Positions 1-43,477 of a DNA stretch of 64,000 nucleotides are shown piece by piece. The DNA comes from Xanthostigma xanthostigma. Its lineage: Eukaryota > Arthropoda > Insecta > Raphidioptera > Raphidiidae. The stretch spans positions 37,778,753-37,842,752 of the forward strand of contig OY754469.1 in assembly GCA_963575645.1 (NCBI GenBank), in the 5' to 3' direction. Position 1 is the first letter of the stretch. Each line of letters opens with the position of its first letter. The notes beneath the pieces were generated by a model. That model was not told the origin of the DNA. It did no database searches and saw nothing but the letters and a program-made list of their open reading frames with translations. The position numbers were made by a program, and so were the translations under genes.

Positions 1-315
1 ATATACTAATATATTATAAAGCTGAAGAGTTTGTTTGTTTATTTGGTTGAACGCGTATCTCAGGAACTACTGGTTCCAATTGAAAATTTTTTTTTGTTGG
101 ATAGTCCATTTATAGAGGAAGGCTATACGCTATATAATCACGCTACGACCAACAGGAGCGGAGCATCAATGAAAAATGTTGCAAAATGTAACTCAAAATT
201 TGTCTCTCCGACAAAAACTTTTGAAATTTGAAAAAAACTCATGAAATTTGGACACAACATTCATCTCCCCCCATTCGTTATTTTGCATCCGGGTGAAACC
301 GGGCGGGCCCGCTAG
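1..315 (+). mobile_element. Non-autonomous Helitron, short form (5' end at window edge)
   Basis: The segment opens with a TATACTAAT...ATAAAGC 5' signature and ends in a GC-rich hairpin region followed by CTAG at 312-315 and then T. This is the Helitron 3' rule (CTRR with insertion between A and T). The body contains phrases such as GAACGCG and TCAGGAACTACTGGTT that recur at 30.9, 34.3 and 40.6 kb. It lacks the tRNA-like module found in longer copies. The first bases of the element may lie just before the window. Family assignment rests on the ends; no Rep/helicase is encoded. Confidence 0.72.
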
Positions 316-30936: not shown

Positions 30937-31687
30937 CTAGCGGTCCCGCCCGGTTTCACCCGGGTGCAAAAGAACGAATGGGAAAGGGAGGGACATGAGT
31001 ACGCACATTCATCTTAGTTTACCGAGATGAATATTGTGTCCAAATTTAATGATGATCAGAGTTACCGTTCAAAAGTTTTTGTCGATAAAAAGCGGTAATT
31101 ATACTTTTTATAAGTATAGATAACAAATTTCATAAATCAATAATTACTGGAATTAATAAAATATAATAAATATTTAATTGAAAACACTGCAGGAAAATTA
31201 TTTTTATATATAGGTCCCTATAGTTATAACAGTTTTAAAATGAGCTATTAATTAGATTATTTAATTTTTATTAGTCGTAAATAATATTAAAATAAATTTA
31301 AATGTCAGAAAGTAATATAGAAAATAAAAAAAAATAAAAATATATTCGCCCAACGTGGGGCCCAGACCCACGACCCTGATACTAAGAGTCACGTACTCTA
31401 CCGACTGAGCCACCCGGGCTTCTGAATTTGCAACACTAATATTGGTATATTTAGTTACGGCATTTCACCTAAATAGAAAGTTATTTTTGAGATATATTTT
31501 GCAAAATTTTTCATTGATCCTCTGCTCTTATTGGTCGTAGCGTGATATTATATAGCCTATAGCCTTCCTCGATAAATGGGCTATCCAACAAAAAATTTTT
31601 TTTCAATTTGAACCAGTAGTTCCTAAGATTAGCGCGTTCAACCAAACAAACAAACAAACTCTTCAGCTTTATATATTAGTATATAGA
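30937..31687 (-). mobile_element. Helitron, long form carrying a tRNA-Lys-like module
   Basis: Minus-strand 5' end A|TCTATATACTAATATATAAAGC at 31687 and 3' end CTAG|T at 30937. The 751-bp element has the short-form 5' part (to about 31,500), then a segment with a tRNA-like sequence (31347-31419), an A/T-rich stretch, and the common 3' part (AAAAGTTTTTGTC... to the GC-rich hairpin CCCGGGTGAAACCGGGC). It is non-autonomous. An (ATT)n repeat abuts the 3' side. Confidence 0.75.
31347..31419 (-). pseudogene. tRNA-Lys(CUU)-derived sequence inside Helitron
   Basis: Exactly 73 nt. Minus-strand acceptor GCCCGGG against GTTGGGC with G discriminator, D arm GCTC-AGTCGGTA-GAGT, anticodon loop CTCTTAG (anticodon CTT) and T arm GTGGG/CCCAC. 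It reads as tRNA-Lys-CUU along its whole length. Position 7 no longer pairs, the anticodon stem keeps only 2 of 5 pairs, and the T loop has lost TTCGA, so it should not be a working tRNA. Confidence 0.72.
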
Positions 31688-34266: not shown

Positions 34267-34870
34267 CTAGCAGTACCGCCCGGTTTCACCCGGGTGCAAA
34301 AGAACGAATGGGGAAGGAAGGGACATGAGTACACACATTCATCTTAGTTTACCGAGATGAATGTTGTGTCCAAATTTCATGATGATCGGAGTTACCGTTC
34401 AAAAGTTTTTGTCGATAAAGAGCAGTATTTAAACTTTTTTTAACTAATATTTTTTTTTAAATGAATTAAATAAAATTAAAATAAATTTAAATGTAAGCCT
34501 TAGAAGAAAGCAATGTAAAAAATAAAAATATATTCACCCAACGTGGGGCTCGAACCCACGACCCTGATATTGACAGTCGCATACGCTACCGATTGATCTA
34601 CCTGAGGTTGTGTCCGTACCATCACTAATATTAGTATATCTAGTTAGTGCATTTCACATGAATAGAAGCTTATTTTTGAGATACTTATTGCAACATTTTT
34701 CATCAAAGCTCCGCTCCTAATGGTCGTAACGTAATATTATATAGCCTATAGCCTTCCTCGGTAAATGGGCTATCCAACAAAAAAAAAATATTCAATTTGA
34801 ACCAGTAGTTCCTGAGATTAGCGCGTTCAAACAAACAAACAAACTCTTCAGCTTTATATATTAGTATAGA
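34267..34870 (-). mobile_element. Helitron, long form with tRNA-like module, nested in a foldback arm
   Basis: Minus-strand 5' end A|TCTATACTAATATATAAAGC at 34870 and 3' end CTAG|T at 34267; 604 bp. The order is the same as in the 30,937 copy: 5' common part, tRNA-like sequence (34535-34607), AT-rich spacer, 3' common part. The interrupted host sequence is known, so the boundaries are firm. Confidence 0.8.
34535..34607 (-). pseudogene. tRNA-Lys-like sequence with GTC anticodon, inside Helitron
   Basis: 73 nt aligned position by position to the 31,347 copy. The T arm is intact (GTGGG-TTCGAGC-CCCAC; box B GGTTCGAGCCC). The anticodon loop reads CTGTCAA, giving anticodon GTC instead of CTT. Acceptor and D arms are degraded. 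Confidence 0.65.
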
Positions 34871-39154: not shown

Positions 39155-39531
39155 TCTATACTAATATTATAAAGAGAAAAGATTTGTATTTTTTTTGCAA
39201 TGAATAAACTCAAAAACTACTTGACCGATTTTAAAAATTCTTTCACTAATAAAATGCTTCATTATCACTCAATAACATAGGCTATATTGTTAATCGAGTT
39301 AAATTAGAGATCCCTACGAAAACTCCAATAATGTAACTCAAGGTGTAAATAATAATCTATATACCTATATATAAAACTCAACATTTGTCCGTCCGACAAA
39401 AACTTTTAAACAGTAAGTGCGATCATCATGACATTTGGACACAGCATTCATCTCGGTAACTAAAATGAACGTGCGTACTCATGTCCCCAATTCGTTTTAC
39501 ACCCGGGTGAAACCGCGGGACGGACCGCTAG
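39155..39531 (+). mobile_element. Chimeric Helitron (family B 5' half, family A 3' half)
   Basis: It starts TCTATACTAATATTATAAAGAG and follows the 61,957 element (AATGAATAAACTCAAAAA, AGGCTATATTGTTAATCG, AATGTAACTCAA) up to about 39,345. It then switches to family A (CGACAAAAACTTTTAAAC, GACACAGCATTCATCTCGG, ACCCGGGTGAAACCG) and ends CTAG at 39528-39531 followed by T. 377 bp. Confidence 0.68.
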
Positions 39532-40569: not shown

Positions 40570-40922
40570 TCTACACTAATATATAAAGCTGAAGAGTTTG
40601 TTTGGTAGAACGCGTTTATCTCAGAAACTACTGATTCCAATTGAAAAATTTGTTTTTGTTGGATAGTCTATTTATCGAGGAAGGCTATAGGCTATATAAT
40701 ATCACGCTACGACCAATAGGAACGGAGCATTTATGAAAAATGTTGCAAAATATAATCTCAAAATTTGTTCGTCCGACGAAAACTTTTGAACGGTAATTCT
40801 GATCATCATGAAATTTGGACACAAAATTCATTTCGATGAACTAAAATGAACATGCGTACTCATGTCCCTCCCCCCCCCCATTCGTTTGTTTGTTCCCGAG
40901 TGAAACCGGGACGGGCCGCTAG
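40570..40922 (+). mobile_element. Non-autonomous Helitron, short form
   Basis: A|TCTACACTAATATATAAAGC at 40570, CTAG|T at 40919-40922, 353 bp. It contains both the common 5' part and the common 3' part joined directly after ATAATCTCAAAA, with no tRNA-like module. It is the cleanest short form in the window. Confidence 0.78.
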
Positions 40923-43120: not shown

Positions 43121-43477
43121 GTCGAGGAAGGCTATAGGCTATATAATATCACGCTACGACCATTAGGAGCTGAACATTAATGAAAAATGTTGCAAAATGT
43201 ATCTCAAAAATAAACTTCTATTCAGGTGAAATGCACTAACTAAATATACTCATATTAGCTTTGTGAGTACCAGAGTGCCTACACAACTTCGACTGGCTCA
43301 ATCGGTAGAGCATGCGACTGTCAATATCAGGGACGTGGGTTCGAGCCCCACGTTGGGCCAATATATTTTTATTTTTTTTTATTTTCTACATTGCTTTCTT
43401 CTAAGGCTTACATTTTTTATTTTAATTTTATTTGATTAAAAATTATTAGTTAAAAAAAGTATAAACACTGCTTTTTT
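43121..43477 (+). mobile_element. Helitron fragment carrying the tRNA-like module
   Basis: It begins inside the common 5' part (GAGGAAGGCTATAGGC), contains the tRNA-like sequence (43287-43359) and the AT-rich spacer (TCTACATTGCTTTCTTC), and breaks off near CACTGCTTTTTTC before the common 3' part. Both ends are truncated. A (CA)n run follows at about 43,500. Confidence 0.68.
43287..43359 (+). pseudogene. tRNA-Lys-like sequence with GTC anticodon, inside Helitron fragment
   Basis: Intact D arm GCTC-AATCGGTA-GAGC and T arm GTGGG-TTCGAGC-CCCAC give good box A and box B. The anticodon loop CTGTCAA (GTC) matches the 34,535 copy. The 5' acceptor strand CTTCGAC no longer pairs with the GTTGGGC 3' strand. 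Confidence 0.65.

Follow-up and report, generated by a model that had tools for sequence, protein, structure and literature searches.

The 64,000-nt stretch analysed here (the window) contains copies of a non-autonomous Helitron family in which a tRNA-Lys gene appears to have been captured, a known process with an unusual cargo. We consider it quite probable that a short non-autonomous Helitron captured a host tRNA-Lys(CUU) gene, likely as filler DNA, and that the chimera was amplified in trans and diversified with the tRNA as a passenger. The element would have gained the tRNA gene plus its flanks, about 60 nt on the upstream side and several hundred nt on the downstream side with the pol III terminator, most likely while a break inside the element was being repaired. 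The rolling-circle machinery of another, autonomous Helitron would then have amplified the chimera, which diversified into at least six subfamilies, a process in which template switching with short Helitrons lacking the module may have played a part, and the tRNA would have lost its folding and promoter elements while the copies kept spreading.

Helitron copies in the window

Two long copies were found on the minus strand, both running TC...CTAG between A and T: a subfamily A copy at 30937..31687 (751 bp), whose limits in the first-pass annotation proved exact to the base, and a subfamily B copy at 34267..34870 (604 bp). Their termini agree with the Helitron rule that this annotation had cited, a start with TC and an end with CTRR. 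The 73-nt tRNA-Lys-like stretch that it had placed inside three copies, in Helitron orientation, was recovered in both long copies and in a truncated module-bearing fragment on the plus strand (43122..43448). The tRNA-Lys(CUU)-derived core, 73 nt, is located at 31347..31419 (minus strand) in the subfamily A copy, where it scores below the Rfam threshold, and at 34535..34607 (minus strand) in degraded form in the subfamily B copy; the tRNA match of the fragment, at 43287-43359, is the only one of the three reaching the Rfam tRNA gathering score (32.4 bits). Both long copies already carry a damaged tRNA part with an altered anticodon stem, and in the 34267 copy the acceptor stem and A box are damaged too.

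In the subfamily A copy, the core is accompanied by a 56-nt 5' flank (31420..31475, minus strand), which travels with the module and is fast-evolving between subfamilies, and by an A/T-rich 3' part of the module (31085..31346, minus strand, inner end approximate), which starts with pol III-type T runs. The Helitron 3' end at 30937..30966 (minus strand) includes a predicted 5-bp hairpin (CCCGG/CCGGG) and the CTAG terminus.

Module-free relatives lie on the plus strand. The short Helitrons at 1..315, with the 5' tip cut off by the window edge, and at 40570..40922 have the same ends and no module, as had been described; a 3'-end fragment of the same family at 39394..39531, without a module in the fragment, was absent from the earlier description. 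Through pattern matching with a 26-base sequence of the 5' part, allowing up to two mismatches, we found four occurrences in the window against 0.00 expected, so this repeat is more than chance.

Helitron ends and class membership

Besides both long window copies, the TC 5' terminus was observed in the 40570 copy and in the subfamily consensus sequences, with single copies departing from it (e.g. L077). Among ends matched by a strict motif, which leaves out mutated ends, A preceded TC in 61 of 63 and T followed CTAG in 53 of 53; with a looser motif, CTAG followed by T was found in 45 of 55 3' ends, and the others were mostly CTAT or TTAG. In aligned B and S (short form) copies the flanks look unrelated beyond the A and T between which the element is inserted, and no target duplication was seen. 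The 5-bp stem is predicted 12 nt from the 3' end, and its stability is no better than that of shuffled sequences (z -0.07). The first-pass annotation had asked whether the shared ends occur only together with the module; the same ends are widespread without it, since the module-free short form is abundant genome-wide (6160 first-look places, best 40 scored, ten aligned).

No autonomous Helitron with matching ends was found in the stretches around 4 of the 89 genome PF14214 matches, stretches that may not extend to both ends of those elements. Numerous Helitron_like_N reading frames, about 1555 aa long, uninterrupted by stops and equal in score, were also present, three of them on one contig (G000:C16 25398, 49277, 74286), which suggests recently active Helitron-like elements.

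Copy number and genome-wide distribution

The searched genome comprised 623 Mb in 28 contigs. A search with the whole 30937-31687 element recovered, apart from the element, 39 scored matches of 88-93% identity that were nearly all full length (best 40 of 6940 places), and the B form gave full-length copies besides itself at 94-97% (best 40 scored of 2811 first-look places); the first-look counts (6940, 6160 and 2811) represent unverified copies. A 28-base anticodon pattern had 818 exact matches genome-wide and none in the reversed control, and all 14 loci fetched among the 100 listed of the 818 matches were Helitron modules. One exact-pattern search returned 14 places, of which 13 were fetched and proved to be modules, while the 14th was L110, already in the locus set; another returned 20 places, with 19 fetched modules, two of them badly damaged, and L020, already in the set, as the 20th.

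Over all fetched loci and the window, we obtained 142 tRNA-like matches of at least 40 nt, 137 of them distinct. Module context was found for 124 of the 137, and the other 13 came from 12 host Lys-UUU loci, one of these matches falling outside the called gene. The Helitron 5' part lay upstream of the tRNA in 105 of the 124 module matches; of the 19 without a visible 5' part, 17 were in loci only 176 nt long, and L041 and L044 were interrupted or truncated. The tRNA-carrying Helitrons look as if they have spread to hundreds of places. Exact patterns of the family had no matches in viral contigs or other genome contigs.

Two arrangements were observed at single loci. In L033 (501-3090), short and long Helitrons of the family form a run in the same orientation within 2.6 kb, and in L060 (1371-2100) one Helitron copy contains two modules in a row.

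Subfamilies and insertion junctions

The copies were told apart into the short form S and the subfamilies A0, A1, A, B, D and E, with at least six bearing the module. The alignments comprised 20 A copies (19 loci and the window), 10 A1 and 7 A0 copies from 68 loci, some of which represent the same place, together with 8 of 14 D loci, 8 of 13 E loci and 10 of 10 B loci, the window B copy being added in some analyses. Incomplete or interrupted copies were excluded by eye, and E was cut at the 3' side.

Across the insertion site, the short form S reads CTCAAAATTTGTCCGTCCGACAAAAACTTTTGAACGG. The junctions of subfamily D read ...GTCCGTC[CGACAAA]TATTATCAGG...GCTTTTTAA[CGACAAA]AACTTTTG, compared with GTCCGTCCGACAAAAACTTTTG in the short form. 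A check for duplications of 7-20 bp around the module, as proposed in the earlier annotation, revealed none in the A and B consensus sequences and the 7-bp CGACAAA in D, the only subfamily with a repeat resembling a target duplication. CGACAAA was exact on the 5' side in 9 of 14 D stretches (L125 has the repeat too, elsewhere than in the stretch picked by script) and on the 3' side in 6 of 8. This repeat could be a target-site duplication.

Downstream, about 210 nt of A0 and about 70 nt of E are missing from S, while D, A1, A and B rejoin the S sequence at one common point. What separates A0 and E from D, A1, A and B is a swap of the 3' internal part against the short form's, for which exchange between long and short elements is the simplest account. 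The extra internal sequence of A0 (AAAACGTGAAAGTACTTAGAGCC...GGGAACTGCCGAAAACTGC; e.g. L065, L052 and L043) is partly shared with E and may be more of the captured host segment. Filler-DNA repair of the kind proposed for insect Hel1 in the accessible text of PMC6544945 agrees with the 7-bp repeat and with the exchanged segments.

Origin and decay of the tRNA module

The distance from the module start to the tRNA is 58 nt in D and about 65 nt in A0. Of 81 modules whose 3' half could be recognised, 80 have a run of five or more T no further than about 40 nt downstream of the tRNA. With these terminators directly after the tRNA, a pol III transcript would be a pre-tRNA and not the whole element. 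No solo module copy occurred among the 124 distinct Lys(CUU)-type matches, which come from the fetched loci and the window. The upstream start, the T runs and the lack of free copies together favour a captured tRNA gene with flanks over a SINE. It had been supposed earlier that a tRNA gene or a tRNA-SINE was captured and then amplified; acquisition and amplification held, and as to the source, the module looks, from its layout, more like a tRNA gene captured with its flanks than like a tRNA-SINE.

A host gene is the likely donor. We found no host tRNA-Lys(CUU) gene through the DNA search of the genome (best 40 of 1557 candidates scored) or through genome-wide exact patterns, the results for one pattern being those among the matches listed (100 of 818), and the donor locus of the captured tRNA was likewise not found in these searches. 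Host Lys-UUU genes were present (L094-L103, L109 and L112), and every near-canonical Lys(CUU) sequence fetched sits in a Helitron module. A host tRNA-Lys(CUU) gene should exist, and it may have diverged or be missing from the assembly.

Compared with a 73-nt reference that we take to be the canonical tRNA-Lys(CUU), the consensus sequences differ at 1 position in A0, 2 in A1, 5 in A, 7 in D, 8 in E and 12 in B. The base changed in A0 is kept in D, so the ancestral module was probably the canonical tRNA-Lys(CUU). The Rfam tRNA threshold was passed by 9 of 9 A0 loci (47.7-57.6 bits) and 10 of 10 A1 loci (32.8-50.7 bits), both sets having been chosen by tRNA similarity, which favours intact tRNAs and high scores. 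It was passed by 5 of 8 A, 7 of 12 E and 2 of 7 D loci, counting L132, by two loci without a subfamily assignment (36.6 bits, and 41.2 bits for L110), and by 12 of 19 short loci at 30-40 bits, a mixed set with several B-like members that was chosen for an intact 3' half; the decay is therefore uneven. Even the A0 consensus has four of five anticodon-stem pairs and no intact cloverleaf, and the A0 scores compare with 66.7-74.9 bits for the 22 best of 63 scored genome tRNA candidates.

None of 10 B copies passed the threshold, so transposition does not need the tRNA. Mean divergence from consensus in the Helitron 5' part was about 5-6% in A0 and A1, 4% in A and D1 and 1% in B, which was sampled by best match in a way that favours young copies; the youngest sampled subfamily thus has the most damaged tRNA. 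Within these limits of sampling, amplification continued after the tRNA had been spoiled, and the cargo is dispensable for spread.

Two other accounts of the module were weighed against these data. A tRNA-Lys SINE might have landed in a source Helitron and hitch-hiked from then on; the CGACAAA repeat flanking the module in D would suit such an event, and a composite of a tRNA-SINE and a Helitron-like element with 21,461 copies is reported for Heliconius melpomene in the accessible text of PMC4016481. However, the insert already begins about 58-65 nt ahead of the tRNA instead of at a pol III start, whereas a SINE would begin at the tRNA head with no terminator before its body. The T runs, the lack of solo copies among the 124 matches and the lack of flanking duplications in the A and B consensus sequences also argue against a SINE, no SINE-type tail was recognised in the consensus sequences, and a tRNA-derived repeat of other layout exists in the same genome (L111 and the L065 flank). 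We therefore regard this origin as unlikely. Still less probable is that the module is a pol III promoter under selection that aids Helitron transposition or expression. Its B-box half hardly varies between A0, A1, A and B (differences at 0-1 of 33 positions), but this is about as slow as the neighbouring spacer and not clearly slower, and the B box of D is altered. B is without A-box and acceptor pairing, yet it is the youngest sampled subfamily; moreover, the T runs would end transcription at once, and module-free short forms are abundant. The suggestion of the first-pass annotation that the module could give the element its own pol III promoter is not supported, given the terminators in 80 of 81 modules and the damage in B.

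The different tRNA-derived repeat at L111 and in the L065 flank has the common body ...CGCCGAGAAACGGTAATT...CTGTACCGGCC and looks like a genuine tRNA SINE of this genome.

Rapid evolution at the tRNA start

A zone from -56 to +40 of the tRNA gene has changed about 2-7 times faster than the rest of the element in 14 of 15 subfamily pairs (differences in zone versus rest: A1-A, 13/96 versus 11/602; A0-A, 14/96 versus 14/601; A0-B, 25/96 versus 17/463; D-A0, 10/96 versus 16/581; A0-E, 15/96 versus 27/531; D-E, 16/96 versus 39/501). The A0-A1 pair showed next to no excess (1/96 versus 5/602), and in D the tRNA 3' half has diverged as much as the zone (4/32 from A0). These ratios use region counts, while the 'rest' counts based on the scan include non-homologous columns. 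In a scan of 10 of the 15 pairs, the densest 96-nt window covered most of the zone in nine (permutation p 5e-5 to 1.5e-3, values that are somewhat flattering since the two zone parts were grouped after looking and the subfamilies are not independent samples). The densest windows start about 16-36 nt upstream of the zone and take in the 5' junction; that of A0-D sits in a non-homologous stretch, and windows around A0 601-660 and 801-840, where non-homologous internal parts are compared, were disregarded.

Over 64 copies, net divergence between subfamilies was 0.16 in both zone parts, compared with 0.05 for the spacer and for the tRNA 3' half, 0.04 for the Helitron 5' part and 0.02 for the 3' part, with a peak at about -39 to +21 that declines on both sides. 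Within subfamilies, divergence by region was even (0.055-0.081, pooled over six subfamilies). The zone was not faster within subfamily A (69/1898 versus 432/11739 in 20 copies; 23/768 versus 158/4798 in the 8 copies found by whole-element similarity, including the window copy), and within B it gave 14/1056 versus 63/5028 in 11 copies. D1 (4 copies) was a partial exception, with 14/220 in the 5' flank versus 31/774 in the Helitron 5' part; the separate within-subfamily tables cover subfamilies other than D2 and E.

The even divergence within subfamilies lends no support to transcription-linked mutation acting on all copies. Ascertainment was considered as the whole cause of the fast zone and rejected: for A and B, both taken from the window, the excess is still about fivefold (27/96 versus 26/454), so choosing D, E, A0 and A1 by their tRNA does not account for all of it. 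Mutagenesis at the start site or selection on the promoter in transcribed masters, constraint elsewhere in the element, and exchange with unsampled lineages are candidate causes, none of them strongly favoured.

We consider constraint elsewhere less likely than not: the zone would be neutral and all else, including the spacer, constrained, and the excess divergence would need no special cause. Transposition presumably requires both Helitron ends, where some constraint is thus to be expected, and the split times of the subfamilies lack an independent estimate. However, the spacer is module-specific, A/T-rich and without known function, and the A1-A divergence outside the zone (11/602, 1.8%) agrees with the gap in copy age (about 6% versus 4%) and is near neutral; against such a rest the A1-A zone stands at 13/96, on the assumption that A arose from A1. 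Mutation is high in tRNA genes and in the sequences flanking them. We might speculate, although we give this somewhat less credence than constraint, that the captured tRNA gene was transcribed by pol III in the germline from source Helitrons and that its start zone was repeatedly remodelled in new master lineages, either by start-site mutagenesis or by selection that silenced or altered the promoter, while silent daughters mutated evenly. Start-site mutation hotspots are reported for the human germline in the accessible text of PMC12658150. If this speculation were true, the family would be a natural record of a mobile element handling a live tRNA gene. The fast-evolving tRNA start is the part worth following. 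Fast change in source lineages, set against even change in the daughters, makes it possible to test directly for transcription-linked mutation or for the silencing of promoters in mobile DNA.

Comparison with known Helitrons

Module-bearing Helitrons produce false tRNA calls and are an annotation hazard: ARAGORN returned 20 tRNA-Lys calls over the 30 loci L039-L068, and 18 'tRNA-Stop' calls (anticodon TTA) over the 30 loci L009-L038. In the literature searched, a body of text with most subscription papers outside it, no description of Helitron capture of a tRNA gene was found.

Lep1 and Hel-2 of Lepidoptera are non-autonomous Helitrons (PMC4038834, PMC4344730). As far as their accessible descriptions go, the present family resembles them in being short and non-autonomous, in the TC start, the insertion between A and T, the acquired sequence and the 3' hairpin, which is predicted here; compared by description, Lep1 ends in CTRY and carries its acquired DNA on the 3' side, whereas here the end is CTAG and the acquired DNA is internal. 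The word tRNA is absent from both main texts.

For Hel1 Helitrons, the accessible text of PMC6544945 describes stepwise internal acquisition and a filler-DNA model. There, as here, exemplars have sequence in common and are told apart by captured pieces inside them, and the short matches at Hel1 junctions measure 2-13 bp; source loci were found there for part of the captured DNA, but none here. Its main text does not contain the word tRNA. The Metulj SINE/Helitron-like composite of Heliconius, for which the source paper notes data not shown (PMC4016481, accessible text), is alike in that a tRNA-derived sequence was amplified along with a Helitron-like element. Its tRNA part is a free-living SINE, whereas the present one is a tRNA gene with flanks, of which no free copies were seen.

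Silkworm Helitrons also captured and amplified host sequence, and new ones arose there by combining two (PMC3789558, accessible text). Since BLASTX was used there to look for captured genes, an RNA gene would have escaped notice; that study, as far as its accessible text goes, covered protein genes only, and here it is apparently a whole tRNA gene, with promoter and terminator, that was captured and spread.
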